From a virus, in the IMG/VR virus record IMGVR_UViG_3300020378_000026, positions 1 through 30,096 of that record: 30,096 bases of DNA. The stretch is one strand, 5' to 3'. Below the pieces are notes generated by a model. It worked only from the letters and a program-made list of their open reading frames with translations, had not been told where the DNA came from and did no database searches. Shown one piece after another: positions 1,204 to 30,096 of the stretch. The stretch's first letter is position 1. Each line of letters begins with the position of its first letter. Position numbers and translations under genes: made by a program.

Positions 1204-1398
1204 ATGCCTCAGAAGAGATATAATGTTATTGAGTGCGACACTAAAGAGGTTGTTACTCAATGCAGTGATGAGTATGAAGCAGATTTAACTATTGCACAGT
1301 TAGTTGATTCAAATCCTAACAAGCAATACAAAGTTGAAACTGTTGAAGTGTATGATAGTGATGCGTTCCGTTATGGACGTGATCCTGAATTGCACTAG
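1204..1398 (+). CDS. Small hypothetical protein, 64 aa
   Basis: A 64-residue protein starting MPQKRYNVIECDTK and ending RYGRDPELH. It is acidic and mixed alpha/beta in look, with the segment QYKVETVEVYDSDAF in its second half. A longer reading frame extends upstream to 1018, but that part is antisense to the minus-strand gene and overlaps its promoter, so the ATG at 1204 is preferred. There is no Shine-Dalgarno sequence; the TAAATA box five bases upstream suggests a leaderless late transcript. Two hairpins with a T-run follow the stop. The family is not recognised. That it is a real gene rests on its protein-like composition and the flanking promoter and terminator signals. Confidence 0.6.
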   Translation: MPQKRYNVIECDTKEVVTQCSDEYEADLTIAQLVDSNPNKQYKVETVEVYDSDAFRYGRDPELH

Positions 1399-1406
1399 TG
1401 TTTAGT

Positions 1407-1458
1407 AGATGAGCTTAACGCTCATCTGTGTTTTCGCTATGCTCAAACACGTTTTTTC
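1407..1458 (+). terminator. Tandem hairpins ending in T-run
   Basis: The first hairpin has an 8-bp perfect stem, AGATGAGC (1407-1414) with GCTCATCT (1420-1427), and a 5-base loop. The second has a 6-bp stem, GTGTTT (1428-1433) with AAACAC (1445-1450), followed by GTTTTTTC. Together they look like a factor-independent terminator for the small gene ending at 1398. The T-run is on the plus strand only. Confidence 0.6.
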
Positions 1459-1469
1459 ATATGTGATTA

Positions 1470-1830
1470 ATATAAGTGCGAAGCACTTTGCTATCATGTA
1501 GATAGTTGAGCCATACTTCGCCCGTCTCCGGGCAAAGTATTGTCGCCATCATGTGAGATAAGCGTACCATCTTAACAAAGTAGATTACATATTAATATGT
1601 ACAGAGGCGGAAACCCGTCAACCCCTTACTACAGCCTTCGCAATAGTCTCGGAACCCTAATATAACCCTGTTAAGCAAGTTATACTAAAGCTGTGGTTGT
1701 ATCTTTTTCACAGAGCCACGATCTTTTAATGCCTACGTTAGCATCAAGCCGTGCAACGTACCAGTTCCAGTCACAAGATCGATGTGACCTCAAGGTAAGT
1801 CGAGCTACCCCGACCAAACAATGTTGCTAT
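1470..1830 (-). ncRNA. Candidate structured non-coding RNA
   Basis: The 499 bases between 1399 and 1897 hold no convincing gene and are richer in G+C than the flanking coding DNA. Inverted repeats are dense: 1474-1488 (6 bp), 1491-1505 (5 bp), 1513-1540, a 16-base perfect palindrome at 1586-1601, 1655-1690, 1691-1713 (5 bp), 1734-1760 (9 bp with one bulge) and 1770-1788 (6 bp). Strand choice rests mainly on two stems. 1513-1540 becomes an unbroken 12-bp stem with a GAGA (GNRA) tetraloop only when read as minus-strand RNA. 1655-1690 becomes a 12-bp stem through three G-U pairs only on the minus strand. Two weaker helices (about 1605-1618 and the edge of 1491-1505) slightly favour plus. The ends are guesses. 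No known RNA class (tRNA, tmRNA, RNase P, SRP) was recognised. Confidence 0.5.
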
Positions 1831-1897
1831 ATAGTGAATTTTAATGTGCCTACACAGTATATTAGTGTATAGTATTTTGTGTTATTGTAAAAGTGGC

Positions 1898-2320
1898 TTA
1901 TTTGCCTTTTAGGCCTTCACGCAGTATCTTAGATCCACCTACTCTAACGTTTATAATGCCGTTGTAGTACTCGTCTGTTTCTAATACCCTACGTTCAAAC
2001 TGCTCTCTTGCCTCTAAGTAACTTGCTATGCCTCTGGATTCGCAGTAATACAGTATTTCTCGTGTGAACTTGTCTTCGCCTAGTTGTTGTACGTCTTGTT
2101 GTAGGTGTTCTGATGAACCCCAATAGTCTTTCCAGTCTGATTCTACCTTGCTTCTACGTTTATTCTTCTTACCTTTAAGTGGTGGTCTTGTTTTTTTAAA
2201 CTTTGCTAGTTTTTTACCTATGTATTTTTTGTTGTTGGTTGTGTTCGTGATTAGATACACGAATGCTTCACAATCCTCTGGTAATGTTTCTATTAATTTG
2301 CCCTTATATGTCCATTGCAT
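1898..2320 (-). CDS. GIY-YIG-like endonuclease-related protein
   Basis: A 140-residue protein. Near residues 20-37 it has FVYLITN followed by KKYIGKK, matching the two halves of a GIY-YIG nuclease core with the first half degenerate (VYL in place of GIY). A basic stretch follows (KKTRPPLKGKKNKRRSK), and later LEAREQFERRVL supplies candidate helix residues including the conserved acidic position. Homologues of this kind are frequent in marine T4-like phages and are annotated as putative endonucleases. The gene is last in the minus-strand run after 55-47-46 and starts eight bases after the preceding stop. A 7-bp hairpin covers the ribosome-site region. It could be a homing-type enzyme, a repair nuclease or a domesticated relative; activity cannot be judged from sequence. 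Confidence 0.65.
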   Translation of the reverse strand: MQWTYKGKLIETLPEDCEAFVYLITNTTNNKKYIGKKLAKFKKTRPPLKGKKNKRRSKVESDWKDYWGSSEHLQQDVQQLGEDKFTREILYYCESRGIASYLEAREQFERRVLETDEYYNGIINVRVGGSKILREGLKGK

Positions 2321-14900: not shown

Positions 14901-15494
14901 GCAGAGATTAATAAAATTAAGTCTATCAGTGATGACGTAATTTATCATCCAGTAAAATATAAAGTTTTATTTGGAGAAAAAGCTGATGCTCAAGTACAAG
15001 CTAATATAAAAATTGTAAAGAACCCAGACCAAGTTGTTAATGATAACGACATTAAGGCAAGAGTAATTAGTGCAATAAACGAATACTTTGCTTTAGAAAA
15101 CTGGGATTTCGGTGACAGTTTTCATTTCTCAGAGATGGCTACTTATGTAATGAATCAAGTTGCACCTGATCTAGTTAACATTGTAATTGTTCCTAAACAA
15201 GACTCACAGGGTTTTGGAAGTTTATATGAAATCAAGTCTGAATCAGATGAAGTTTTCATAAGTGGAGCAACAGTTGATGACGTAGCAATCATTGATGCAA
15301 TTACGGCAAGTAAATTAAAAGCATCAGGTAATGTTGTTACAACCACAACAACTACAACAAGCGGTGTTACAAGTGGATCAAGTTATACAAGTGCAACAGT
15401 TTCAAGTACAAGCAGTTCTAGTACGAGCAGTTCAAGTTCAAGTTCAAGCAGTTCTAGTTCAGGTGGTGGCGGATCGTCTGGGAGTGGATACTAA
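11958..15494 (+). CDS. 6: Baseplate wedge protein gp6, enlarged
   Basis: gp6 forms the continuous inner ring of the baseplate and belongs to the baseplate J family. The N-terminal region is diagnostic: EYLALIDLIAFLGQNLAFRV, then NARENFLELAERRESILRLA and LLSYSPKRN (about residues 60-112). A J-family segment with NAPSTYYTQNRMVTGEDYQV lies near 416-435. The C-terminal segment NWDFGDSFHFSEMATYVMNQ, then APDLVNIVIVPKQ, matches the end of T4 gp6. At 1,178 residues it is almost twice T4 gp6 (660). The extra length lies mainly between the J-family part and the C-terminal part, with beta-rich and acidic segments (FDSDSDGVVDDPETF). After the conserved end there is a Thr/Ser/Gly tail of about 50 residues. 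The stop overlaps the next start (TAATG). Confidence 0.9.
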   Translation: MSSTNRQNRLLLAEDWKKVYQSFRNAEFKSYDFDNLRRTMINYLRQNYPEDFNDYIESSEYLALIDLIAFLGQNLAFRVDLNARENFLELAERRESILRLARLLSYSPKRNQCANGLLKFESIATSEDIVDSNGTNLASQTILWNDPSNINWREQFEKVLNAALPVNSPVGKPIKKDNVEGIPTDQYRFDSSNSDVPVYTFSKNVDGKNMQFQVVSTNVEEGVISEEAPLPGNNLAFLYRDDGRGPGSTNSGYFAHFRQGTLDQGTFNVDSPSTNQSISLEATNINNTDLWLYKLNSIGAEEEAWTKVDSVEGNNIVYNSLRKSVRNIFGTLSKTQDKVDLIFSDGTFGNLPQGTFRVYYRTSINDQYNIVPADLVAISVSIPYTSKTGNPESLTISLELKYTVDNATVSETNASIRQNAPSTYYTQNRMVTGEDYQVSPLSISQEIIKTKSVNRTSSGISRYYDLLDSTGKYSSTNLYGADGIIYKDKFTEKTSFTFSTKTDVQGVIANQITPILSQKQMLNYYLTNFPKTLVADLGAKWSQKTTTTNQATGSFVDVANSPLQVGTFTSSALKFIEPGTLLKFVAPTGQHFMADNSHKLMIGNADHPNAITYKWVKVVSVTGDGRTDNADGTGPIILNDIIPTNAVLSELRPKFSKTLLSDVQSQIVDQVFAYKTFGLRYDVNLRQWRMITQNNLDITSEFSTGKTGDVTDQQLDSSWLLLFETDGEKYTITSRGQRYIFESNEEIRFYYDSTSKIFDNRTGQIIKDKISILSINRQPDSTNAFTVDYPWEISKEYRDGDGYIDSKKVEITFFDSDSDGVVDDPETFVTLVDETTNPLTKYIFQKKYTTSDGIEDYKYMDNSSNSVQIKQSEGVVGALSQYTDGQVFYLVTEDVFKIYSSTAGTLALTTDYKAYVGRDGLKFHYIHSADDDSRIDPSSSNIIDTYLLTRTYDTNFRQYLNGTITNKPLPPSSDNLFNNYGAEINKIKSISDDVIYHPVKYKVLFGEKADAQVQANIKIVKNPDQVVNDNDIKARVISAINEYFALENWDFGDSFHFSEMATYVMNQVAPDLVNIVIVPKQDSQGFGSLYEIKSESDEVFISGATVDDVAIIDAITASKLKASGNVVTTTTTTTSGVTSGSSYTSATVSSTSSSSTSSSSSSSSSSSSGGGGSSGSGY
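15338..15491 (+). repeat. Thr/Ser/Gly low-complexity tail of gp6
   Basis: The DNA runs through ACA/ACT codons and then repeated AGTTCA, AGCAGT and TCTAGT units, ending in GGTGGTGGC. It encodes a run of about seven Thr, a Ser-rich stretch including about a dozen consecutive Ser, and a Gly/Ser end. The repeated hexamers could allow replication slippage. It is probably a flexible tether. Confidence 0.8.
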
Positions 15495-18400
15495 TGTCAT
15501 ATGATGATAATCAAAACGAATATCCATTACCAGTTCCAGGACAACCAGACAACCGTAGGCGAACTAGTGCAGAACATCTGCCAAGGTATTTTCGTAGCTC
15601 TCATAACAAAAAGTTTTTACAAGGTACACTAGACCAACTTACACAACCAGGTGTTGCTGAAAAGATTAGTTCTTACTTTGGTAGAAGAATATCCAAAGCA
15701 CGTAAGGCGTCTGATAATTATGTAAGTGATGTAAGCACACAAAGAGAAAACTATCAGTTAGAGCCTGCAACAGTAATCAAGGACGAATTAAACAACGTTA
15801 CTTTTTACAAAGACTATAACGATTTAAAAAATCAAATAAAAGCATTCAACGGTACTGTAGATGACGACAGTAAATTGTTTAGTCAAGAATATTATGCTTG
15901 GAACCCTAGCATTGATTGGGATAAGTTTACAAACTTTAGAGATTACTATTGGTTAGAAAACGGACCATTAGCTATTCCTGTTGTTGGACAAGCAAGAGGT
16001 ATAACAAGCACGTACACAGTTACAAGCCAAGATGATTTAGATAACAAAGCATACGTCTTTTCATCAGAAGGACAAACATCAAACCCAACACTTAAATTAT
16101 ACAGAGGGCAAACATACAAGTTTGACATTAATACTCCGGGTATGCCTTTGTCAATCAAGACAGCTAGAACATTAGATAGTGCATACAATTATAGTGTAGG
16201 TATTAGCGACAGTACACATAGCACAGACGTTGGCGTTATAGAATTCACAGTAGACATACTTGCACCAGATACATTATATTATGTAAATGGTAATGATATT
16301 AATGCAAGTGGTTTAATACAGATTTATGATATATTAGAAAACAGTGAAATAGATGTAGAAGCAGAAATACTTGGTAAGAAAACTTACAAAATGACAAACG
16401 GATATGATTTGTCAAACGGTATGAAAGTAGATTTTCAAGGTGTTGTAACACCTGAGAAGTATGCAACAGGCAATTGGTATGTAGAGGGTGTTGGAGATTC
16501 TATTAGATTAATCAGCGAAGCAGACGTTCAAGTACCAGGTACGGTAAGCACAAACAAAGCAATTCCATTTGACAGTGAAAGTTTTGATAGAGCACCTTTC
16601 AGTAATGCTAATGCTTGGGCAAAAGACAAAGATTATATTATACAAAACAGAGCAAGTCCAAGTAAATCACAATGGGCAAGATATAACAAGTGGTTTCACA
16701 AAGATGTTTTAGAAACTGTAGCGGCAATTAATAATCAACCTAGTGATGTTAATCAAACAGGTAGAGCGGCAAGACCGATTATTGAATTTGCTTCAGACCT
16801 TAAACTTTGGAACTTTGGTACGTTTGCAAAAGACAACGTTGACTTATTAGATTCATTTACAGCTGATGTGTTTTCAACTATTGAAGGTTCATTAGGATAT
16901 AACATTGACGGTGTAGATATTGCAGACGGAATGAGAATTCTATTTACTGCTGATCCTGATACAAGAGTTGCAGGTAAAATTTTTAAAGTTAAATTTATCA
17001 CACATCAAAATATAAGACAGATAAGTTTAATTGAAGAACCAGACACTAATCCATTAGAAAATGAAACAGTATTAATCAATGATGGTACAGATTACAAAGG
17101 TAAGATGTGGTACTACAACGGTACCAAGTGGTTAGCAGGACAAGACAAAACTGCAATTAACCAATCTCCTACGTTTGACTTGTATGATCAAAGTGGTAAC
17201 AGTTTTAACAGTACAACAGTTTACAGCAATAGCACGTTTGCTGGAACAAAAATATTTTCATATAAGAAAGGTACAGGAACAAATGATCCTATACTAGGCT
17301 TTCCGTTAACTTATAGAGCATTAGAAAACACAGGTGATATTGTATTTGACTTTAACCTGCTACAAGATACGTTTACATACCAAGACGACAGTAATGCAAA
17401 CGTTACAGGTAACACGGATACTGGTCTTTTAAGAAGATATTCAGATAGAACTACATTTACATATACATCAGGTTGGACTAAAGGTTATGAAGATAGCAAA
17501 CAGTTAGTAGAGCGTCAGTATATTGTAACTACACAATACAACGACTTTGCAATTGATGTTTATGATAATAGCGGTGACATTAACGACTTGTGGGTAAGAG
17601 TTTATGTAAACAACAAAAGAAAAATGAATGGTGTAGACTTTACCATTAACAGAATTAATAAAATTGCTTATATAACATTTACTACTAATTTAAAAGCAGA
17701 TGACATACTTGTAATTAAAACAAAAAGTGATACAAAGAAAAATGCAAATGGTGTTTATGAAATAGCATCAAACTTAGAACACAATCCACTTAATAATAAT
17801 GTAAGTTCATTTACATTAGGAGAAGTTAATGATCATGTATTAAGCATTTGTGAAATGCGTGATGACTTTAAAGGTGATTTTCCTGGAACAGGTAACCTAA
17901 GAGATTTAGGAAACTTATCTGCATACGGTAATAGATTTGTTCAACACAGTGGACCTTTTAATTTAGCAAACTACCACATCACAAGTAAAGATGCTAATAT
18001 TATCAAGTCAATGCAATTTGCAAAAAGAGAATATGGTAAGTTTAGAAAGTTATTTTTACAAACAGCAAATACTTTAGGATTTGACGGACAGAATAAAATT
18101 CACTTTGATAGAGTGATGGAAAAACTTAACAAAGACAAGTCAAATGATATGCCATTCTACTTCAGTGATATGCTTGGATTTACAAGTGCTAAAATGTCAA
18201 CACACGTTGTAGACAATCCAAACACACAATATTACGCATTGAATACAGCATTTGATCTTACAACACTTTCTAACAAATCCGTAAACGTTTATATAAACGG
18301 TGTACAATTAATACACGGAATAGATTATAAGTTTGAAGCAGACTTTAGTGGATTTGTAACTATTACTAAAACAAAAGCTATAAATGATGTAATTCACATT

Positions 18401-21400
18401 TATGAATACAACACCACTGACGGAAGTTACATTCCTGCAACGCCTACTAAATTAGGTTTGTATCCTAAATTTAAACCAGAAATATTTACAGATACAACAT
18501 ACCAAGTTCCAACTAAAGTTATTCAAGGACACGATGGAAGTATTTTTGTTGCATACAATGACTTTAGAGATGACTTGCTATTAGAATTAGAAAAAAGAAT
18601 TTACAATAATATCAAAGTAGAATATGATGCTACTATGGTAAACATATTTGACTTTATAGGTGGTGAAAGCAGAGACACAGGCTTTACAAGAAAAGCAAGA
18701 GATAGAGCTTTATTACCAGAGTTTATTGAATGGAATAATGCAGTAGGTTCACCAGACTATGCAGATAATAGTTTTTGGTCAAGAACTAACAGCTTTACAT
18801 TTAATTACAGCAATACTAGTTCTCCAACAGGAAAACAAAATGCAGGTTATTGGAGAGCAATATACAAAGAAGCATATGATACTGATCGTCCTCATACACA
18901 CCCTTGGGAAATACTAGGATACAGCGAAGAGCCAACTTGGTGGCAAACTGTTTACGGTGCGGCACCTTATACAAGTGAAAATAAAATCCTATGGCAGGAC
19001 ATAGAAAAGGGTGCATATAGAATACCTAATCAGCCTGTAACTTATAACAGCAAATATGCAAGAGAAAATATTACAAGTCATATACCGGTTGATGACGGTG
19101 GTAACTTATTAAGTCCATTAGATTCTAACTATGCGAAAAATTATATTAGTAATAGAACACAGCAGACTTTTGTATTTGGTGATCAAGCACCTACAGAAAC
19201 AGCATGGCGTAGAAGTTCTGAATACCCATTTGCACTAATGATAGCATGGTTGTTAAATCAGCCAACTAAAATCTTAGGACTTGGTTATGACAGATCAAGA
19301 ATTAGACGTAACCCTGCTAAAGAAGTTGTTTACACAGAAACAAATAAAAGATTAAGACTTGCAGATATAGTATTTCCTAATACAACTACAGATACAACTC
19401 GTGTACAAACATCAGGATTTGTAAACTACGTTAATGACTACATGAATAGTAGAACTGTAAAGTATTACAAAGAATATCAAACAGATCTAAAAAATATTAA
19501 TAACCAACTAGGATTAAAGATTGGTGGATTTACAGATAAGAGTAAATTCAAACTTATTTTAGATTCAAGAACTCCTTATAACGAAGGTAATGTTTTTGTT
19601 CCTGAAGAAAACTATCAAATATTTTTAAACAAATCAAGTGTAATTGATCTTGTTCCTTACAGTGGTGTTATTGTTGAAAAGGTCCAAGGTGGCTTTGTTA
19701 TTAGAGGTTACAATTATGATAATCCTTACTTTAAATATTATTCACCTGTTAGTTTAGCAGATGATCCTGTAGTAAGAGTAGGTGGCGTAAGCCCAGACTT
19801 TGTAACTTGGACATCAGGACAGAGTTACAGCCCAGGACTTATAGTAGAATTTAGTGGACGTTATTACACAACAAAAACACAGCATACCGCAGGTGATAGT
19901 TTTGATCAAAGTATGTTTGTTGGACTTCCAGAACTTCCTATAGAAGGTGGTAGAACAGCAACATTCCATAGACAATGGAACGAAGGAATAAATGACGAGC
20001 CATTAGAACTTGCTTACGGAACGCAATTACAAACTATTCAACAAGTTGTAGACTTTATCTTAGGTTATGAAAGATATTTAAAAGCCCAAGGATTTGTTTT
20101 TGAAAATTACAACACAGAAATAAACGAAGTTGAAGACTGGCGTTTAAGTGCAAAAGAATATATGTTCTGGACTACACAGAACTGGGCAGAAAATAGTGTT
20201 ATTACTTTAAGTGCAGGTGCAAACAAAATTTGTTACTATAAAAAATATCATGTAGCTGATGACATATTTGATAACTTTTATGGCTATAACTTATACAAAG
20301 CAGATGGTAAAAAATTAATTCCTGCTTTTGCAAGTGTATATAGAGATAACGATAACAGAATAGAAATTACAACTAAAAATACTGCTGACGGAATCTTCAG
20401 TGTTAAGTTACCATTAGTACAAACTGAACACGTTGTATTATTAGACAATACAACCGTGTTTAAAGATTACATTTATGATTTAGAACCAGGCTATCGTCAA
20501 TCAAGAATTAAAGTTATGGGTTACAGAACAGATGACTGGACTGGTGGCTTTAACATTCCAGGATTTATATATGACAATGCTGAAGTTACTGAATGGTCAG
20601 ACTGGAAAGATTACGCAGTTGGTGATACAGTAAAACACAAAGAATTTTATTATGTTGCAAAAGTTAAGATTCCTGGACAAGCAAACTTTGATGCTACACA
20701 ATGGGAACGTTTAAATACAAGACCACAACCAGGATTAATTGCAAACTTTGATTACAAAGCAAAACAGTTTGAAGACTTCTATGATTTAGACACAGATAAC
20801 TTTGATACTTCGCAACAAAGAGTTGCACAGCATTTAATTGGTTATCAAAAACGTAAGTACTTAGAAAACATTATTAATGATGATGTTTCACAGTATAAGT
20901 TTTACCAAGGCTTCATTCAAGACAAAGGAACACAAAACAGTTTAACTAAATTGTTTGACGCTTTATCAAACACAGATAAAGATAGTGTAGAGTTTTTTGA
21001 AGAATGGGCTTTACGTTTAGGTCAAATAGGTGCGGCACAATCTTTTGATGAAGTAGAATATAAACTTGACGAAGCGAAATTTAGATTAAGTCCGCAACCA
21101 GTTGCACTTGTAGAATCTGTAACGGGAACAGAAACAGACTTAATTTATAGACAAAGACCATTTGAAACTTATTTAAAACCAGATGGATATAATCATAAAC
21201 CATTCCCTACAAAATATAAAGATGAGGATTATATTCAAACAGCAGGTTACGTTAATCCTGCAGATGTTAAGACACAGGTTGCAACATATGACGCAATTTT
21301 AAATATTGCAATTACTACTCTTAACATTGGTGATTATGTTTGGTCAGGCACAAACAAAACTAATACTTGGGACGTATTCAAATATTTACGTAGTGAAGAC

Positions 21401-24400
21401 AAGGTTGTTAAGCTAACAAAAAATAGTACTACAGATGAAGTTGAAATAAAATTAAACAACCAAGCAAATTATGTAAAAGATGATATCATAGGTTTAGTTG
21501 ATGTTGCTGACAATGAAAGATTTTATAAAGTATTACGTTCAGAGTTAGATACTGTTTACTGTAGCGAAAACGGAACTACAACAGATGTAGATCCTGCAAC
21601 AGGATTTGTTACATACTTTACAAGTGTTAGAGTAGCAGACCTAGAAGCGGCTAATACAAAACTTATTAACAGTGAAATAAAAGTAGGTGAAACTATTTGG
21701 GTAGACGATGATAGTTCTAGCAAGTGGTTAGTAATACAAAACAATCCTATACACAGCCAACACCAAGTTATTTCTAATGTAGAAACAGGAGATTCAAGCA
21801 CAAACTTTGGTAAAGTAATTGCTTGTGATGAAAGAAACAGTACATTAGTTGTAGGTGCAAGTGAGTCTAACAAGGTTTACATTTACAGCAGAACAAGTGA
21901 TGGTGGACAATATGTACACGCACAGACAGTAGATGCACCAACAGGCATTTACACAGGTGACGGTAAGTTTGGTACAGGACTTGCATTATCAAGAGATAGC
22001 AAGTGGTTAGTAATAGGTGCTCCGCAGGCAAGTAATGTTAAAACAAAATTTGTAGGAAACTTTACAGGTGCTCAATCTTATGCAAAAGGAGACATTGTAA
22101 ACTATCAGGAAAACTTCTGGGAAGCACAATATCCTATTTCACAGGCACAAGGTGTACTAACATTTAGCAGTTTCTATGATACGGCCTCAGTAGCTGAAGC
22201 AAGTTGGAACGGGTCAGCATATCCAGAAGTAGTTTATGCAATAAGAGGAAATTATAACTTTAACGTTCCTACTGATCATATGTTGATTAGAGCACCAGCG
22301 GCACAGTACGAAGCAACAGCGGCCGGTGATACTCTTGTATTAAACTGGGATCAGTATTCACAGAATTATCCAAACGGAATTTTACCTTTCGGAAGTAATG
22401 GACCAGGTGTGTCTGCATTTGAAGGTAACAAAATTATTGCAAGTAAAGTAGATGCAGTATTATACTTTGATAATATGTTAAGAACACCTAACGTTGGTGA
22501 TACACTTTCTACAGCAACAGCAATAGGTACAGTAGATTACATTCACGTAGAAAACATAAACCAAGCTACAGTTTATATTAAAGATTTAAATGGTGTGTTT
22601 ACAGATAGCGGTAGTGCATCACTTGGTACGCAAAACATGGGAACTTATGTTACAGTTAATCCTTTGAATTCTGCAATAACATTTGGCGGCTGGTGGAAAG
22701 TTACTGGTTTACCAAGTTTTACTACAACAACTAAAACTGTTACAACACCACAATTTGTAGTACAGGATATTATTACACAGTCAGAAAGTAAATCACCTGA
22801 AATATACTATAACACAATGGACGATGCGTATGCGTTGAACCAAGTTGCTGATCCAACAAAAGGTGGCTTAATAGGACATCTAAGTTTCTACAACAAACAA
22901 GGTATGCCAGATCTAAGTCCATACTGGTTCTTTAGAGCACCTAAGGCTTGGACAGATACTTTAACTGCTGGCGATACTTTTAAGATGTTTATTAATAAAG
23001 TAAGAAACAGTTTAGGAACAGTATTTGATCCTGCAACATTAGGACTTGATACTTCTTACACTAACCAAACAGCAGGACATCAGGTTTATGATTTGTGGGA
23101 CGGTTACGTAGATGTTACATTTACAAACTTTGATAACCAAGGTGATCCGTTTATTCCACAAATAGGACAAACAATTACTGATCAACTAACAGGTGCAACT
23201 GCCGAAGTTGCTTATATACAAGAGCAGTTACTAGATGTTAGATTATATGTTAAAAACAGAGTTGGTACATTTAGCTTTGGTAATTTACACGCGGCAACAA
23301 GTACCATTGCAATTAAAGATGGTGTAAGTCCAGGTATTGATAGATTATCAGGTAGACTAGACAACGCAAATATGTCTAGCAACTTAACTGGTAAATTAGT
23401 TGTTGTTAGATTTACAGACTCAACACAATTACCTGTAACTACTCCTACGTTTAAAAACGAGATTGAGATACACGTTTACAATGATAGAACTGTAAATGGT
23501 GTAGCAAGAACACCTAACTTTCCTAATCCACTTAACAAGGATTGGACACAGGTTTCTGCACTTAAAACAGATTCAACTGGAACTCCTAGTGCATTCACTA
23601 ACGAAGGTGCATACTTTGTTTATGAAAAAATGGGTACAGGATTGTTTAGTTACCAACATGGTTACACAAATCCACAAAGAGATAATAACAGATATCTAGG
23701 TACACAAATAGAATTACAAAAATCAAATACTACAAATGATTTTTACAGATTGTTTATTAGTGCTCCAGGAAGTTTAAATGTAAGCAACAGCGGTAGAATA
23801 CACTTTGTTAATCACGGTACAGATACAGACGGTACAGAATATGAATGGGGTAGAAGTAAGAACCAATTCTTTAGAGGCGAATATGATGCCGCACAAACGT
23901 ATTACACAAACGATATTGTTTTATATCAAGGTAGCTTCTATCAGTCAGACACTAACCTAACACCAGGTGCGTTTAATCTAAGTTACTGGAGATTGTTAGC
24001 AAACAACATAGACTACATTGGCTACATTCCAAACGACACAGGACTAACAGTAACTGATGACAGTACATTTGATAAAGCAAACTTAATACAGTATGCACAT
24101 CCGTTCTCAGTAAGTAAATTCGGAGACGTACTTGCAACTGTGGCAGACTTTAATAACAGTGATCCTAAGATTATAATTTACAGAATTAATAACGGACACT
24201 ATGAATTTTCACAGATGATTCCTGCACCAAGTGTTGGAATAAAATATGGAAGTGCAGTTAGCTTAAATGACGTAGGAGATATGTTAGCCATTGGTGCACC
24301 GCAAGACGATACCCGTGCAGATAACAATGGTAAGGTATTCATTTATACAAGTGTTGATGGTGTGTTCAGTGAAACACAAACATTGTTTAGTCCTGAGAAT

Positions 24401-27400
24401 GACGTAGCAGAAAGATTTGGAGCCGCAGTAGACTTTGAAGGCAATGATTTAATTGTAAGTTCTAAAGGTGGAGACCTTGTAACAAGCACAACGTTTGATG
24501 TGTTGTCAACTACATTTGATAATAACTTAACACAGTTTGAAAGTGTAAACACAGATAGTGGACAAGTGTTCTTGTATCAGAAAGTACAAAACAAATTATT
24601 ATATGCAGAGAAGTTTAATTATAAAAATGCTTCAGTAGAAAGATTCGGCGAATACTTATTATTCAACGAGAATCACGTTTATGTTCCAATGCCAGAACTT
24701 TCCGTAACTGACAATAACTTTATAGGTACGTTGTTAGATTACAAGAGAGATAGAGGAGTTCTACCTTGGAAAACTTTACATCAACCAACTGACCAAGTTG
24801 ACTTGAGCAAGTTTAGAGGTGTGTTTATTTACACTATGGGACCAAACCCTGTAGCACAACAAATAGATTACATTGATCCTATACAAGGAAAAATTGCAGG
24901 TGCGGCCGAAGAAGAATTAACTTATAAAACACATTACGATCCTGCTGTTTATACTAACGGAACTAACACACCAACAACTGTAATTGATCCAGATAACTAC
25001 TGGAATGATGCAAACGTTGGCAGACTATGGTGGGATATAAGCACAGCTAAATTTGTAAATCCATACCAAGGAAATATAATTTACAATACAGCTAACTGGA
25101 ATAAATTATTCACAGGTGCAAGTATTGATGTTTATGAGTGGATTGAAAGCACACTTACTCCTACACAATGGAACGCAACAACAGATACAGAAGAAGGACT
25201 TGCAAAAGGTATAAGTGGTACAGCTAAAGACGTAAACACTTTTGTACAAATACAAGTTTATGATCCAATATCAAAAGGATTTAGCAACAAGTATTACTAT
25301 TGGGTTAAAGACAAAAAAATTATTCCGAATGTAGAGTGGAGAAAAACTTCTGCTTATGACGTATCACAATTAATTTCAGATCCGATGGCAATGGGTCAAA
25401 AATTTGTTGCACTTTACGGAAATGATAAATTTGGATTATACAACTGTGAATCACTTGTAAGTGGACCAGACAATGCTATTAATTTCCGTTATTGGAAGAT
25501 TGATAACAAACAGATTAATATACATAATCAATATCAACTGCTTTCAGAAGGTTTAGGTACAAGCAAACCAAATGCAGATATTGAACGTAAATGGTATGAC
25601 AGTTTAATTGGTGTTGACACTAACGAAAGACCGGTGCCAGACACTATCTTAAGTGAAAAACAAAAATATGGTATACTAGACAGACCAAGACAAGGTATGT
25701 TTAAAAACCGTGTAGAAGCTCTAAAACAAACTGTTGAAAGAGCTAACAGATCACTGAAAGAAAATTTAATTGTTGACGAACTAGATTTAACTGCTTTCTT
25801 AAGCAAAGATCCTACACCAACATTATTAAGCAGAACTTTTGATAAGTCAGTTACTACAAATGCAGAACTACAATTTGTTGGAGTATCAAATGTTATTCCA
25901 GCAGTACTAACGCCTGTATTTGAAAACGGCAAATTATTAAGAGTTGAAGTTACAAATGGTGGTAAAGGATACGTTACAGTTCCAACATATGACTTTGGAC
26001 TTGTAGGCAACGGAAGTGGTGCAGAGATTATACTTGAAATGAATACAGCAGGTACTATTACAAGTGCTACTGTTAAAAATTCAGGTTCAGGATATCCTAG
26101 CACAACAACATTAGAAGTAAGAAAATATAGTGTGCTTGTTACTGCTGACGAAACTGTTAGTAACAAATGGGCTATATATGCCTACAATAACACAACTAAA
26201 CTTTGGGAAAGAACTTCAAGTCAAAGTTACGACACTACTAAATGGTGGAGTTATATTGATTGGTATGATACAGGTTACAGCGAATTTACAGACATTAACT
26301 TCCTAGTTGATTACTCATATGAGCTAGAAGGATTAAATGATGATGTAGGTGATATTGTAAAAATTAGTACAATAGGATCAGGTGGCTGGTTGCTACTAGA
26401 AAAGATTAGCGATAACGGTGCAGACTATACAACAAAATATAAAACTGTTGGTAGAGAAAACGGAACTATAGAATTATCGTCGGCACTATATGATCCAGCA
26501 AGTAGTAACATTGGTTACGATGGATTAAGTTATGATACTTCATTCTATGACGATCAACCTACATTAGAGTTAAGAAAAATCTTAACAGCATTGAGAGATG
26601 ATATCTTTATAAACGAGCTTGATGTAGAATACAACAAACTATTCTTTGCAAGTGTAAGGTATGCTTTTGCTGAACAACCAAACGTTGACTGGGCATTTAA
26701 AACTTCATTCCTTAAAGCTAAACATAACGCAGGTGATTTAACACAAAAAATTACTTTTGAAAATGACAGCTTACCAAGTTATGAGGATTTTGTTAATGAA
26801 GCTAAACCATACAAAACTAAAATTAGAGAATACATAAGTTCTTACACTAAAACAGATCCAACAGGAACAGGTGTAACAGACTTTGATATACCACCAGCTT
26901 ACAGTAGCGATGATGGTAAGATTGTACCTTCAAGTTTAAAAGTTAAAGATGATGTAATCTATGGACAAGATGCAAACATTGTAGACTATCCTAACAAGTA
27001 CTGGGCTGACAATGTAGGCTTTGAAGTATTAAAGGTTAATATCAAGAACGGTGGAACAGGTTACTTAGATGTACCATTAGTTAAATTTGCAGGCGGTGGC
27101 GGATCCGGTGCAACTGCAACAGCTACACTTGGTACAGGTGGATCAATAAAATACATTACAGTTACAAATCCAGGTAGCGGATACCTAAGTGCTCCTACAG
27201 TTACTATTGAAGGAACACAATCAAATGGATCAATACCAGCAGTAGTATCAGCACAGCTAGGAAATAGTAAAGTTAGAGCATTACATCATGTATCTAAGTT
27301 TGATAGAGTTACAGGAACGTTCTTAATTACTACACTAACACAAACAGAAAACTTTACAGGTACAGGAAGTAAAACTACATTCAACCTAACATGGCCAATG

Positions 27401-30096
27401 GATTTAAGAAAAACTTTGGTAGAAGTTACTGTAGATGGTGTTGAATCATTACAAAGTGAATACACTTACAGCAACGTTGAATACACAGATAAGACTTACA
27501 TAAGAAACAAAGGTCAAATTGTATTCAGTGAACCTCCGGCAAATAATGCTGTGATCGTTGTTAAGTATTCTAAAGCTATTACTATGTTACAGGCACAGGA
27601 TAGAATTAACTTGTTCTATAGCCCAACAACAGGTATGTTAGGTAATGATGTATCACAGTTAATGGACGGTATTGACTACGGTGGAATTGAAGTTAAGAGT
27701 TTCACGTTTGGTGCAGGAACAGGTTGGGCTAGTGATCCTTACTACACAACAACTTGGGACACTTATGATAATACATATGAAGATGAAGTCTTTACACTAG
27801 ACGGAAGTACAAATGTATTTGCACTTGCTAAACCATTAGAGAATGGTGTAGTATATAACGTATACAAAAATGGTGTTAGAGTTGACGATCCACAATATGA
27901 TGGTTCAACAGTTCCTACAAATGTTAATGCTGTTATGCAAAGCATTACAGGATCAGGACAAACAACAATACACCTTGATGAAGAAAAGATTCCAACAGTA
28001 GCAAATGATGTTATTGTAATTAGAAAAGCAACAAGTGATGGATCATTTATTCCAGATCCAGATGGATATGATACGTTAGTACAAGGTGGTGACCTAGCTT
28101 ATGCTACTGCCAAAGGTATTAACGCAGAAGAAATTGTTATTGACGGTGACGGATTTGTTACTCCATTAACTTCTAAAGGTCCTGAAGAACTTGTTCCAGG
28201 ACAAGTATTAGATACGTTGGATATTAAAGTTTATGAAAGAACTGGTGACGGTTCAAGTGTATTACACAGTTACAACTATTTAGGTGACGGAACAAACAAA
28301 GACTTTGATATTAATTACGTACCAATGAGTCAAAAAGATGTCTGGGTAAAAGTACATGGCACTATTCTAGCTCACACTGAATTTACAGTTGACTATCAGA
28401 ATAAAAAATTAAAGTTAACAACTGCTCCAGGCGACAAACAGCAAGTACATATTATTACAATGAGTAATAACGGTGAGAAAATACTTGACGTTGATCAATT
28501 TGTAGGTGACGGTTCAACTGCACAATTTGTAACAAGTATTAAATTTAAACCAACATTAAGTTTCTTCTTAACAGTTGACGGAGAAACAACTAACGTTGAT
28601 ATGGCAGAAACAGATGGAACTTATGCACAAAAAGGAATGTGTGTATTCAAGTTAGGTCAAGCACCTGCTAACAGTACAATAATACAGTATGCAATATTTG
28701 ATAGTGAAAGTAAATCATTCTCACAGATTGCAACAGATATATTTACAGGTGATGGAACAAACAAAGAATTTGCTCTTGCACAAACTCCACTTAACCAAAA
28801 ACCATTAGAACATAATGTAATTGTTAAGGTTGGAAACAAAATATTAAAGGCAGGATACAATCAACAGTTTAACGTAACAACAGCAGTAAGAGAATATCAA
28901 TTAAAAGATTATCAAATTACTCAAGCTGGTGTTGGTGCAAACCAAGTTAGAGTGTTCCTAAACGGAACAGAAATTACATTGTCAACAAGTTGGAACTGGA
29001 ATACGTTTAATGCTTCAGTAGAATTATTTGCTGACGTAGGTAATGATGGTGATGTGTTAGATGTATATGTAATTGATGGCGGCGAGTACGCATTTGGTTA
29101 CTTGGACGGAAACGGATTATGGGTTGAAACTCCAGGTAAAGTTTATCTTGATACTGCTCCTGCAAACAATGAAAGTGTAATTGTTTACCAGTTAACTAAT
29201 CATGATGTAAGAAAAATTGAAAGAATTAACTTAGACATAGTTACACGTAACCCAATTACAGTTGGTACAGATAATTACACAGAATATCATCAGCTTACAA
29301 ATGGTATTATTAAATTACGCAAAGCGGCCATTGATGCTGAATATGTGTGGTTAGTAGTAAACGGTGATTTATTAACTCCAAGTGTTGATTATTACTTACA
29401 AGATGATAAGCAAACTATTAGAGTTGTAGTAGATCTTAATGCTAATGACGTTATAGAGTTGATACACTTCTCAAACAGCACAATAGTTGGTAAGTTTGGT
29501 TACAGACAGTTTAAAGATATGTTGAACAGAACGCACTTTAAACGTTTAGGTGATGATGTAGAGTACACATTAGCAAACAACTTAAACTGGTATGATACTA
29601 AGATATTTGTAACAAACGCAGATAGCTTACCACAGCCAAACAGAGATAAAGGTATTCCGGGCATTGTATTCATTGGCGGAGAACGTATTGAATACTATCT
29701 AAAAGAAGATGGTGCTCTAAGACAGTTACGCAGAGGTACACTAGGAACAGGTATTAAAACAATACACACAGCAGGAACACAGGTGATTGATCAGAGTGTT
29801 TACCAGACTGTACCTTATAAAGATGAGATGAGAACACAGACATTTACAGCAGATGGCTCAACTAGAGCTGTAACTGTAGACTTTGTTCCAAATAACGTAA
29901 ACGAATTTGAAGTTTTTGTAGGTGGGCGTAGATTACGCAAAAATGCGATAAGTTCCTTCAATCCAAGCAATGATTTGGACAGTCCAGAAGGAGATATTAC
30001 ACTACCGGCAGAATTTAGTGTTGATGGAGTCAATCCAGTGGTAACACTAACTAATACACCAGCGATTAACACCAAGATAATGGTGGTTAGACGCAT
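15494..30096 (+). CDS. Giant baseplate-proximal structural protein, 3' end outside window
   Basis: One frame is open from the ATG at 15494 (coupled to gp6 by TAATG; GGGAG upstream) to the edge of the window: at least 4,867 codons. It lies where T4 has gene 7, but I see no clear gp7 match. The N-terminus (MSYDDNQNEYPLPVPGQPD, then helical regions to about 90) may dock on the baseplate. A long beta-rich, Asn/Thr/Tyr-rich body follows with recognisable modules: chitin-binding-like modules near residues 1437, 1699, 2187 and 2794; FG-GAP-like propeller repeats near 2100-2180 and 2873-3115; Gly-Tyr repeat domains near 3484-3540 and 3848-3907; and at least six GDGS-type beta repeats between about 3953 and 4818. 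Such modules bind sugars or proteins, so a peripheral, host-contact role is plausible. Giant proteins follow gp6 in other marine T4-like phages. Confidence 0.88.
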   Translation, partial: MSYDDNQNEYPLPVPGQPDNRRRTSAEHLPRYFRSSHNKKFLQGTLDQLTQPGVAEKISSYFGRRISKARKASDNYVSDVSTQRENYQLEPATVIKDELNNVTFYKDYNDLKNQIKAFNGTVDDDSKLFSQEYYAWNPSIDWDKFTNFRDYYWLENGPLAIPVVGQARGITSTYTVTSQDDLDNKAYVFSSEGQTSNPTLKLYRGQTYKFDINTPGMPLSIKTARTLDSAYNYSVGISDSTHSTDVGVIEFTVDILAPDTLYYVNGNDINASGLIQIYDILENSEIDVEAEILGKKTYKMTNGYDLSNGMKVDFQGVVTPEKYATGNWYVEGVGDSIRLISEADVQVPGTVSTNKAIPFDSESFDRAPFSNANAWAKDKDYIIQNRASPSKSQWARYNKWFHKDVLETVAAINNQPSDVNQTGRAARPIIEFASDLKLWNFGTFAKDNVDLLDSFTADVFSTIEGSLGYNIDGVDIADGMRILFTADPDTRVAGKIFKVKFITHQNIRQISLIEEPDTNPLENETVLINDGTDYKGKMWYYNGTKWLAGQDKTAINQSPTFDLYDQSGNSFNSTTVYSNSTFAGTKIFSYKKGTGTNDPILGFPLTYRALENTGDIVFDFNLLQDTFTYQDDSNANVTGNTDTGLLRRYSDRTTFTYTSGWTKGYEDSKQLVERQYIVTTQYNDFAIDVYDNSGDINDLWVRVYVNNKRKMNGVDFTINRINKIAYITFTTNLKADDILVIKTKSDTKKNANGVYEIASNLEHNPLNNNVSSFTLGEVNDHVLSICEMRDDFKGDFPGTGNLRDLGNLSAYGNRFVQHSGPFNLANYHITSKDANIIKSMQFAKREYGKFRKLFLQTANTLGFDGQNKIHFDRVMEKLNKDKSNDMPFYFSDMLGFTSAKMSTHVVDNPNTQYYALNTAFDLTTLSNKSVNVYINGVQLIHGIDYKFEADFSGFVTITKTKAINDVIHIYEYNTTDGSYIPATPTKLGLYPKFKPEIFTDTTYQVPTKVIQGHDGSIFVAYNDFRDDLLLELEKRIYNNIKVEYDATMVNIFDFIGGESRDTGFTRKARDRALLPEFIEWNNAVGSPDYADNSFWSRTNSFTFNYSNTSSPTGKQNAGYWRAIYKEAYDTDRPHTHPWEILGYSEEPTWWQTVYGAAPYTSENKILWQDIEKGAYRIPNQPVTYNSKYARENITSHIPVDDGGNLLSPLDSNYAKNYISNRTQQTFVFGDQAPTETAWRRSSEYPFALMIAWLLNQPTKILGLGYDRSRIRRNPAKEVVYTETNKRLRLADIVFPNTTTDTTRVQTSGFVNYVNDYMNSRTVKYYKEYQTDLKNINNQLGLKIGGFTDKSKFKLILDSRTPYNEGNVFVPEENYQIFLNKSSVIDLVPYSGVIVEKVQGGFVIRGYNYDNPYFKYYSPVSLADDPVVRVGGVSPDFVTWTSGQSYSPGLIVEFSGRYYTTKTQHTAGDSFDQSMFVGLPELPIEGGRTATFHRQWNEGINDEPLELAYGTQLQTIQQVVDFILGYERYLKAQGFVFENYNTEINEVEDWRLSAKEYMFWTTQNWAENSVITLSAGANKICYYKKYHVADDIFDNFYGYNLYKADGKKLIPAFASVYRDNDNRIEITTKNTADGIFSVKLPLVQTEHVVLLDNTTVFKDYIYDLEPGYRQSRIKVMGYRTDDWTGGFNIPGFIYDNAEVTEWSDWKDYAVGDTVKHKEFYYVAKVKIPGQANFDATQWERLNTRPQPGLIANFDYKAKQFEDFYDLDTDNFDTSQQRVAQHLIGYQKRKYLENIINDDVSQYKFYQGFIQDKGTQNSLTKLFDALSNTDKDSVEFFEEWALRLGQIGAAQSFDEVEYKLDEAKFRLSPQPVALVESVTGTETDLIYRQRPFETYLKPDGYNHKPFPTKYKDEDYIQTAGYVNPADVKTQVATYDAILNIAITTLNIGDYVWSGTNKTNTWDVFKYLRSEDKVVKLTKNSTTDEVEIKLNNQANYVKDDIIGLVDVADNERFYKVLRSELDTVYCSENGTTTDVDPATGFVTYFTSVRVADLEAANTKLINSEIKVGETIWVDDDSSSKWLVIQNNPIHSQHQVISNVETGDSSTNFGKVIACDERNSTLVVGASESNKVYIYSRTSDGGQYVHAQTVDAPTGIYTGDGKFGTGLALSRDSKWLVIGAPQASNVKTKFVGNFTGAQSYAKGDIVNYQENFWEAQYPISQAQGVLTFSSFYDTASVAEASWNGSAYPEVVYAIRGNYNFNVPTDHMLIRAPAAQYEATAAGDTLVLNWDQYSQNYPNGILPFGSNGPGVSAFEGNKIIASKVDAVLYFDNMLRTPNVGDTLSTATAIGTVDYIHVENINQATVYIKDLNGVFTDSGSASLGTQNMGTYVTVNPLNSAITFGGWWKVTGLPSFTTTTKTVTTPQFVVQDIITQSESKSPEIYYNTMDDAYALNQVADPTKGGLIGHLSFYNKQGMPDLSPYWFFRAPKAWTDTLTAGDTFKMFINKVRNSLGTVFDPATLGLDTSYTNQTAGHQVYDLWDGYVDVTFTNFDNQGDPFIPQIGQTITDQLTGATAEVAYIQEQLLDVRLYVKNRVGTFSFGNLHAATSTIAIKDGVSPGIDRLSGRLDNANMSSNLTGKLVVVRFTDSTQLPVTTPTFKNEIEIHVYNDRTVNGVARTPNFPNPLNKDWTQVSALKTDSTGTPSAFTNEGAYFVYEKMGTGLFSYQHGYTNPQRDNNRYLGTQIELQKSNTTNDFYRLFISAPGSLNVSNSGRIHFVNHGTDTDGTEYEWGRSKNQFFRGEYDAAQTYYTNDIVLYQGSFYQSDTNLTPGAFNLSYWRLLANNIDYIGYIPNDTGLTVTDDSTFDKANLIQYAHPFSVSKFGDVLATVADFNNSDPKIIIYRINNGHYEFSQMIPAPSVGIKYGSAVSLNDVGDMLAIGAPQDDTRADNNGKVFIYTSVDGVFSETQTLFSPENDVAERFGAAVDFEGNDLIVSSKGGDLVTSTTFDVLSTTFDNNLTQFESVNTDSGQVFLYQKVQNKLLYAEKFNYKNASVERFGEYLLFNENHVYVPMPELSVTDNNFIGTLLDYKRDRGVLPWKTLHQPTDQVDLSKFRGVFIYTMGPNPVAQQIDYIDPIQGKIAGAAEEELTYKTHYDPAVYTNGTNTPTTVIDPDNYWNDANVGRLWWDISTAKFVNPYQGNIIYNTANWNKLFTGASIDVYEWIESTLTPTQWNATTDTEEGLAKGISGTAKDVNTFVQIQVYDPISKGFSNKYYYWVKDKKIIPNVEWRKTSAYDVSQLISDPMAMGQKFVALYGNDKFGLYNCESLVSGPDNAINFRYWKIDNKQINIHNQYQLLSEGLGTSKPNADIERKWYDSLIGVDTNERPVPDTILSEKQKYGILDRPRQGMFKNRVEALKQTVERANRSLKENLIVDELDLTAFLSKDPTPTLLSRTFDKSVTTNAELQFVGVSNVIPAVLTPVFENGKLLRVEVTNGGKGYVTVPTYDFGLVGNGSGAEIILEMNTAGTITSATVKNSGSGYPSTTTLEVRKYSVLVTADETVSNKWAIYAYNNTTKLWERTSSQSYDTTKWWSYIDWYDTGYSEFTDINFLVDYSYELEGLNDDVGDIVKISTIGSGGWLLLEKISDNGADYTTKYKTVGRENGTIELSSALYDPASSNIGYDGLSYDTSFYDDQPTLELRKILTALRDDIFINELDVEYNKLFFASVRYAFAEQPNVDWAFKTSFLKAKHNAGDLTQKITFENDSLPSYEDFVNEAKPYKTKIREYISSYTKTDPTGTGVTDFDIPPAYSSDDGKIVPSSLKVKDDVIYGQDANIVDYPNKYWADNVGFEVLKVNIKNGGTGYLDVPLVKFAGGGGSGATATATLGTGGSIKYITVTNPGSGYLSAPTVTIEGTQSNGSIPAVVSAQLGNSKVRALHHVSKFDRVTGTFLITTLTQTENFTGTGSKTTFNLTWPMDLRKTLVEVTVDGVESLQSEYTYSNVEYTDKTYIRNKGQIVFSEPPANNAVIVVKYSKAITMLQAQDRINLFYSPTTGMLGNDVSQLMDGIDYGGIEVKSFTFGAGTGWASDPYYTTTWDTYDNTYEDEVFTLDGSTNVFALAKPLENGVVYNVYKNGVRVDDPQYDGSTVPTNVNAVMQSITGSGQTTIHLDEEKIPTVANDVIVIRKATSDGSFIPDPDGYDTLVQGGDLAYATAKGINAEEIVIDGDGFVTPLTSKGPEELVPGQVLDTLDIKVYERTGDGSSVLHSYNYLGDGTNKDFDINYVPMSQKDVWVKVHGTILAHTEFTVDYQNKKLKLTTAPGDKQQVHIITMSNNGEKILDVDQFVGDGSTAQFVTSIKFKPTLSFFLTVDGETTNVDMAETDGTYAQKGMCVFKLGQAPANSTIIQYAIFDSESKSFSQIATDIFTGDGTNKEFALAQTPLNQKPLEHNVIVKVGNKILKAGYNQQFNVTTAVREYQLKDYQITQAGVGANQVRVFLNGTEITLSTSWNWNTFNASVELFADVGNDGDVLDVYVIDGGEYAFGYLDGNGLWVETPGKVYLDTAPANNESVIVYQLTNHDVRKIERINLDIVTRNPITVGTDNYTEYHQLTNGIIKLRKAAIDAEYVWLVVNGDLLTPSVDYYLQDDKQTIRVVVDLNANDVIELIHFSNSTIVGKFGYRQFKDMLNRTHFKRLGDDVEYTLANNLNWYDTKIFVTNADSLPQPNRDKGIPGIVFIGGERIEYYLKEDGALRQLRRGTLGTGIKTIHTAGTQVIDQSVYQTVPYKDEMRTQTFTADGSTRAVTVDFVPNNVNEFEVFVGGRRLRKNAISSFNPSNDLDSPEGDITLPAEFSVDGVNPVVTLTNTPAINTKIMVVRR
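19803..20715 (+). repeat. Two chitin-binding-like modules in the giant protein
   Basis: Residues from about 1437 (WTSGQSYSPGLIVEFSGRYY) and about 1700 (WSDWKDYAVGDTVKHKEFYY) share the pattern W-x-Y-x2-G-D-x-V-x4-x-Y-Y. The second closes with FDATQWERL. This is the arrangement of the CBM5/12 fold of chitinases and phage tail proteins. Two further copies are at 22052-22130 and 23875-23999. Assignment is by pattern only. Confidence 0.55.
21797..22030 (+). repeat. FG-GAP-like propeller repeats, first block
   Basis: Two units: NFGKVIACDERNSTLVVGAS with NKVYIYSR, and KFGTGLALSRDSKWLVIGAP. They fit the FG-GAP pattern (FG, then a strand, LvVGAP, then KVyIY) of integrin-type beta-propeller blades. 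The second unit stops where a chitin-binding-like module begins, and the propeller pattern resumes about 2 kb later. Confidence 0.6.
24110..24841 (+). repeat. FG-GAP-like propeller repeats, second block
   Basis: Four further units: KFGDVLATVADFNN with KIIIYRI; KYGSAVSLNDVGDMLAIGAP with GKVFIYT; RFGAAVDFEGNDLIVSS with GQVFLYQK; and RFGEYLLFNENHVYVP with GVFIYTMG. Together with the first block this gives about six blades, near the seven of a complete propeller. Confidence 0.6.
25944..26120 (+). repeat. Gly-Tyr beta-repeat domain, copy 1
   Basis: The sequence contains VTNGGKGYVTVPTYDF, NGSGAEI, then VKNSGSGYPSTTTLEV. The pattern GG-x-GY-x3-P, GSGA, GSGY-x3-P is repeated at 27035-27214, which suggests a small beta-structured module. 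Confidence 0.6.
27035..27214 (+). repeat. Gly-Tyr beta-repeat domain, copy 2
   Basis: IKNGGTGYLDVPLVKFAGG, GSGATATATLG, then VTNPGSGYLSAPTVTIEG. It is the same pattern as copy 1 and matches it more regularly. Confidence 0.6.
27351..29945 (+). repeat. GDGS-type beta repeats of the giant protein
   Basis: At least six units open with F-x-G-D-G-S/T-x3-F: FTGTGSKTTFNL (27351), FTLDGSTNVFAL (27791), YLGDGTNKDFDI (28279), FVGDGSTAQFVT (28499), FTGDGTNKEFAL (28742) and FTADGSTRAVTV (29840). Most continue with a strand such as VWVKVHGT, NVIVKVGNK or EFEVFVGGR. Spacing varies from about 200 to 1,100 bases, so other domains are inserted. Similar units occur in phage tail fibre and baseplate proteins. 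Confidence 0.65.

Follow-up and report, generated by a model that had tools for sequence, protein, structure and literature searches.

A Structured RNA Family of Marine Phages Carrying Two Identical Short Words That Change in Concert

Introduction

Large structured RNAs are, to our knowledge, rare in phages, and we know of none whose function is settled. More than once, large bacterial RNAs encoded beside nucleases or polymerases have proved to act as a guide or template of a new kind, and HEARO or omega RNAs are guides for IscB. RAGATH-18 RNAs are described in one report as having proved to be guides of TnpB (PMC11061315). In DRT10, mutation of either A or A' alone kills repeat addition, while mutation of both restores it (PMC12632851), and the DRT2 RNA has a pseudoknot (PMC12039810). 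Among the RNAs of phages, GOLLD and ROOL form homo-oligomeric, RNA-only assemblies (PMC12286853), and Melnitz, a marine T4-like phage related to the one studied here, has a two-piece tmRNA (PMC9004378).

The RNA described here resembles each of these systems in part. Like GOLLD and ROOL, it is a large, ornate and pseudoknotted phage RNA, but it is shorter, no Rfam covariance-model match links it to them (at gathering scores or at E ≤ 10), no tRNA genes lie beside it, and it carries a pair of identical words, termed X, which change in concert between viruses. Such a pair is not known to us from GOLLD or ROOL, and it separates the RNA from the large phage RNAs known to us. With the DRT10 and DRT2 RNAs and telomerase RNA it shares a pseudoknot and two identical short words of which the identity, not the sequence, is kept, whereas the present phages (16 large contigs searched) lack a reverse transcriptase, and a conserved hairpin lies between the words. 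As with RAGATH-18 reRNA and TnpB, or HEARO/omega RNA and IscB, a conserved RNA adjoins a DNA endonuclease gene in mobile DNA; here, however, the nuclease is of the GIY-YIG type, gene and RNA are separable, and there is no long guide. Like the tmRNA of Melnitz, it is a structured RNA of a related marine T4-like phage, but it has no tRNA-like domain. The family occurs commonly among marine T4-like phages and extends to a second type of phage; Rfam 15 does not contain it. Its concerted words are a functional handle that GOLLD and ROOL lack, since whatever covaries with X in phage or host would be the partner.

Genomic Setting

The window, namely the whole stretch of DNA that was analysed (30,096 nt; IMG/VR record IMGVR_UViG_3300020378_000026), is a fragment of a marine T4-like phage in which we recognise genes for the late sigma factor gp55, for gp47/gp46 (SbcD/SbcC) and for the baseplate. 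On the minus strand, gp46 is followed by a 69-codon reading frame, a SegE-type gene and the RNA region. A sequence-only reading of this DNA had pointed to about 500 gene-free bases, and indeed nothing convincing lies between the gene end at 1398 and the SegE gene at 2320–1898. That reading had taken all of 1399–1897 for a probable structured minus-strand RNA; the RNA itself stands, while its extent had to be trimmed to about 1840–1470, and the pseudoknot, the link to SegE and the two identical X words had been missed. The features of the locus are as follows.

1204–1398, plus strand: small conserved gene, 64 aa, convergent to the RNA (tblastn homologues at many loci, down to 31–50% identity)
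1404–1457, plus strand: hairpins, probable terminator of gene 1204–1398, with a terminator-like site at 1405–1429; outside the RNA core
1470–1840, minus strand: structured non-coding RNA gene with approximate ends (24 aligned homologues show covariation and conservation; more than 300 loci)
1898–2320, minus strand: SegE-type GIY-YIG endonuclease gene (PF19835, E 6.7e-35), directly upstream of the RNA

The predicted plus-strand gene is a genuine one, whose homologues occupy the matching place in many contigs, and its 64-aa product gave no Pfam or PHROG match. The hairpins at 1404–1457 are probably the terminator of this convergent gene; they are missing or altered in the homologue alignment in four loci (L026, L035, L037, L042) and, being terminator-like on the plus strand, were left out of the RNA.

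A Folded RNA on the Minus Strand

The minus strand almost certainly encodes a conserved structured RNA. Folded alone, it reaches −148 kcal/mol (z = −5.4), and none of 100 dinucleotide shuffles is as stable, whereas the result for the plus strand is less marked (−126.5, z = −2.5). The minus-strand asymmetry that had been noticed in the single sequence extends to the whole family: over the 91 pairs of the fold model in 24 sequences, G-U cells number 191 and A-C cells 49, an excess that places the RNA on the minus strand. Covariation shows the putative phage RNA to be an independent, tertiary-folded molecule of about 350–400 nt, roughly 370 nt in the window.

The fold model was derived from the 24-sequence alignment with RNAalifold, and its 91 pairs include a long-range pseudoknot. 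Covariation among homologous marine phage contigs, proposed earlier as a check on the RNA, proved strong, the full model having 84.2% of cells paired, 48 pairs with two-sided changes and a covariation score of 0.321. Shuffles gave 74.2% of cells paired, 31.9 two-sided pairs and a score of 0.163, none of 500 reaching the real score, and controls in which the 3' partners were slid by 1–3 columns gave 39–47% of cells paired and a score of at most 0.117. In the same 24-sequence test, the measure of further pair types showed no excess over shuffles. From 5' to 3', the elements of the fold are as follows.

1753–1827, minus strand: 5' domain, in which P1 closes P2, P3 and P4
1827–1823/1757–1753, minus strand: P1, 100% of cells paired
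1814–1809/1804–1799, minus strand: P2, 100% of cells paired
1797–1794/1762–1759, minus strand: P3, two-sided changes in 4 of 4 pairs
1789–1783/1775–1769, minus strand: P4, two-sided changes in 7 of 7 pairs
1693–1746, minus strand: hairpins P5 (1746–1727) and P6 (1719–1693)
1655–1690, minus strand: hairpin P7, 62% of cells paired, two-sided changes in 7 of 11 pairs
1675–1666, minus strand: 5' strand of the pseudoknot, which is the P7 loop, pairing with 1580–1571
1581–1631, minus strand: three-way domain of P10, P9/P9a and P9b
1631–1629/1583–1581, minus strand: P10, 100% paired, two-sided changes in 3 of 3 pairs
1626–1603, minus strand: P9/P9a, with P9 100% paired
1601–1586, minus strand: P9b, 87% paired
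1571–1580, minus strand: 3' strand of the pseudoknot, 10 bp with 1675–1666, found by RNAalifold
1558–1570, minus strand: hairpin P11, with the first X copy just 3' of it
1514–1539, minus strand: hairpin P12 with a GAGA loop, between both X copies, 93.7% of cells paired
1475–1487, minus strand: hairpin P13, AGUGC-UUC-GCACU, 60% of cells paired, sequence variable

P5 is weaker, with 55% of cells paired, while P6 is 100% paired, shows two-sided changes in 3 of 4 pairs, and has a conserved loop, CUCUGUGAAAAAG..CAA. The pseudoknot helix has 92.5% of cells paired and two-sided changes in 6 of 10 pairs. P12, which reads UACUUUGCCC-GGAGAC-GGGCGAAGUA on the minus strand from 1539 to 1514, corresponds to the hairpin with a GAGA tetraloop that the sequence-only reading had placed at 1513–1540; the hairpin is genuine, contains a U-G pair that exists on the minus strand only, and is kept in all homologues examined. 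P13 probably belongs to the 3' part of the RNA.

Family Distribution and Subtypes

A search of IMG/VR for SegE relatives yielded 80 loci, and iterated nhmmer gave 79 RNA matches among 82 loci, directly behind SegE. The collection was then extended by further SegE queries and by two scans for short RNA motifs that excluded X, and the family now numbers more than 300 viral contigs or loci, which are highly redundant. It comprises subtypes A (that of the window), B, C, D and a type of T7-like phages, and an nhmmer search with no query but the window sequence finds B and C as well (E 1e-11 to 8e-10). In type C, the equivalent pseudoknot helix is built from other letters (CUCUA/UAGAG, CUCCA/UGGAG, CGUAA/UUACG), with 78 of 80 cells paired against a shuffled mean of 66, a value not reached by any of 2000 shuffles.

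The RNA is a new family. It had earlier resisted assignment to any known RNA, and searches of Rfam 15 with the window and other members gave no match at gathering scores and nothing convincing at E ≤ 10. A weak alignment to RAGATH-23 (RF03099) over P11, the first X copy and P12 (17.5 bits, E = 2.1) is probably due to chance, as it is far below the gathering score of 92.6 and absent in other members. A blastn search with RNA queries from six members against 50,697 annotated phage records, among which the near records of the window are possibly absent, found nothing relevant. Identity as a tmRNA or tRNA was rejected, ARAGORN finding neither in the window; its failure to list tRNA genes in the large contigs came from an unproven scripted setup and carries no weight. 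A group I or group II intron was likewise rejected, since there is no Rfam match to an intron core, and the RNA sits between complete genes in both genome settings and interrupts none.

Matches in bacterial genomes were confined to two phage contigs binned in a Neomarinimicrobiota MAG. These (L468 and L469; PBPT01000016.1 and PBPT01000082.1) carry nearly the same T4-like phage locus with the RNA; their appearance is that of phage sequences placed in the bacterial bin, and they may point to a host. In L138 (3440–3960), L144, L150 and L360, an extra conserved 5' stretch, GGUUAGCGGGCCAGA..UACCGCUGUGGAAAAG, lies upstream of the aligned core, so that in type B and the T7-like type the RNA may be 450–500 nt long. 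In contigs that are not T4-like (L462, of 6.6 kb in a record of 25.9 kb, L466 and L440), the RNA adjoins late genes, and in L462 its neighbour is a probable terminase small subunit (PHROG match E 6e-8).

Two Words Changing in Concert

The two copies of X flank P12, with a spacing of 46–72 nt across the family, and both words are probably single-stranded.

1548–1554, minus strand: word X, copy 1, ACAUGAU, 3' of P11, varying jointly with copy 2
1493–1499, minus strand: word X, copy 2, ACAUGAU, varying jointly with copy 1

About 20 different X words are known, among them ACAUGAA, GCAUGAU, UCGUGAU, UCUUGAU, ACUUGAU, UCAUGAU, AUAUGAU, UCGAGAU, AGAUAAU, ACAGGAA, ACAGAAA, ACAUAAA, ACAUCAA, ACGUGAA, GAAUAAU, UGCCAAG, UGUCAAG and UGUGAAG. 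Positions 2–4 take all four bases and position 6 is an invariant A, and even close relatives differ, as in UC[A/U/G]UGAU within type C. All 164 modules have the same bases at positions 1–6 of both copies, and 96% also at position 7; agreement in the adjacent positions −6 to −1 is no better than chance or falls below it. This table was made by repeat picking, and the automatic finder picked wrong repeats in 22 of 187 modules; the 22 omitted modules are mostly cut at contig ends, and the copies agree wherever both sites are readable. Because the table had been built by choosing repeats, the check was repeated in fixed alignment columns, in which the copies of subtypes B, C and the T7-like type agree save for three type C rows that are off by one gap, and one of the four rows of subtype D is misaligned. 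Fixed columns show the agreement in subtype A too: in alignment A1, which was built regardless of repeats, ACAUGAU, AGAUAAU and GCAUGAU switch at both sites. This concerted variation between viruses suggests that the RNA grips one partner twice.

The Partner of X

No complement to X was found inside the RNA or within 2.5 kb of it. For 11 phage genomes, orthologous genes and shared-flank sites were scanned as far as the sequences were covered; the X sites came up, which serves as a positive control, but no complement that tracks X did. Nor were the words enriched or depleted to any telling degree in the covered portions of their own phage genomes. Hence X is either matched outside the searched phage DNA or needs only to match itself, and the former would imply a trans-acting RNA with two identical recognition words. 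Two candidates for pairing were rejected. Pairing with tRNA anticodon loops had the appeal of the invariant A at position 6 (opposite U33), but was rejected by reasoning: position 2 would imply a base 37 that is wrong for the tRNAs of such codons, and one X word would correspond to a stop codon. A kissing interaction between the two copies through self-complementarity was rejected as well, most words being non-palindromic.

The explanation that we prefer, as possible if short of probable, is that the RNA acts in trans and that its pair of identical X words serves to engage a single external partner, which is most likely a nucleic acid. The 5' domain, the pseudoknot core (the P7 loop and the strand before P11) and P12 would position the two words around P12, the RNA would act alone or with a protein, and its two words would meet a common external partner; base pairing is the likeliest mode of contact, and the paired nucleic acid would differ between phage–host pairs. 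A shared, variable partner would lead to some 20 X sequences while both copies remain identical, and the free change of X among close relatives favours base pairing over protein binding. We infer a base-pairing partner from the freedom of the sequence together with the identity of the copies, the phage genomes being partly covered; the invariant A at position 6 counts against base pairing, as a freely varying partner does not require it. More specifically, and with greater reserve, the RNA may be a paired guide, with two identical, freely changeable words of 6–7 nt acting on one external nucleic acid, possibly host-encoded. If so, it would represent a dual-word kind of RNA not described before, whose words co-evolve through one shared partner.

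CsrB-type RNAs bind CsrA, and a comparable role here as a protein decoy or sponge, in which a dimeric phage or host RNA-binding protein holds both X copies and the words follow changes in the protein, seems unlikely but deserves weight. Two identical short motifs that adjoin hairpins would suit such a role, as would the failure to find a complementary nucleic acid in the RNA, its surrounding 2.5 kb and the 11 partly covered genomes; on the other hand, there are some 20 words, three of their positions accept any base, and they vary even among close relatives, a freedom rarely seen in the specificity of a protein.

It is quite improbable that the RNA is the template of a repeat-adding polymerase, with X1 and X2 in the role that the realignment words A and A' have in telomerase RNA and the DRT10 RNA. 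The X pair does provide two identical realignment words, with identity as the sole constraint, which is what DRT10 needs, and a pseudoknot is present, as in DRT2. However, reverse transcriptase (PF00078) is absent in 16 phage contigs of 70–268 kb, a host enzyme being possible, and the stable, covarying P12 lies inside the would-be template, where it would block copying; the lack of the enzyme and this hairpin between the words are the grounds for rating the template low, and the variable X spacing also speaks against it.

Very improbable, finally, is a role of X at the DNA level, either as direct repeats for site-specific recombination or as duplicated target sites around a mobile hairpin. The overlap regions of recombinases have identity as their sole requirement, and the words are 7-bp identical direct repeats around a hairpin; yet P12 and X occur in every complete member, which argues against a fresh insertion, inverted arms beside X are absent, and the G-U asymmetry and covariation are marks of selection on RNA.

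Relation of the RNA to SegE

Counting the loci that were selected by the RNA and extend at least 900 nt upstream of it, 122 of 127 have SegE immediately before the RNA. The other five (L360, L373, L379, L462, L466) belong to other phages, in which the RNA stands among other genes; in L350 and L379, SegE lies directly downstream of the RNA, and one 25.9 kb record, that of L462, has the RNA without SegE. Conversely, closely related SegEs (73–75% identity) lack the RNA in L133, L159, L161, L081 and Melnitz, the last of which does not carry it beside its SegE. In the SegE tree, the RNA-less proteins are nested in the RNA-linked clade, and unrelated SegEs stand beside the RNA in the exceptional phages, those of T7-like contigs coming from other lineages. 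The strict co-occurrence of RNA and nuclease expected of omega or reRNA guides was not found.

As SegE and the RNA are separable, we take SegE to be a neighbour of the RNA, probably a homing endonuclease drawn more than once to this conserved gene and less probably the protein partner of the RNA; a guided nuclease is kept as a rival. That the RNA is the working part of a SegE ribonucleoprotein, for instance the guide of a GIY-YIG nuclease, we regard as improbable. T4 SegE is known as a protein-only homing enzyme, and the close but RNA-less SegEs, the SegE-free record and the foreign lineages of the T7-like SegEs all speak against it. What favours it is the adjacency, upstream or downstream, together with the precedent of RAGATH-18 RNAs as TnpB guides, as described in one report (PMC11061315). 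Against our preferred view, SegE and the RNA keep together in T4-like contigs more strictly than one would expect of a homing gene that has no tie to the RNA.

In T4-like contigs the RNA follows segE immediately and on the same strand, a placement that would also suit a cis-acting RNA, that is, a segE 3' UTR that controls transcript stability or termination and has no partner in trans. This is rather unlikely, since T7-like contigs have the RNA elsewhere, with segE not upstream, and its size, pseudoknot and concerted X words exceed the needs of a UTR hairpin.

Two observations concern neighbouring proteins. In the window, a reading frame at 15494–30094 (plus strand) stays open for more than 4867 aa and runs off the end; homologous giant proteins occur in related contigs and measure 4937 aa in one cluster of these. 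The SegE-type GIY-YIG proteins of marine phages, as seen among tblastn matches in the phage collection, are often annotated as 'NAD synthetase', a label that is apparently a propagated misannotation.
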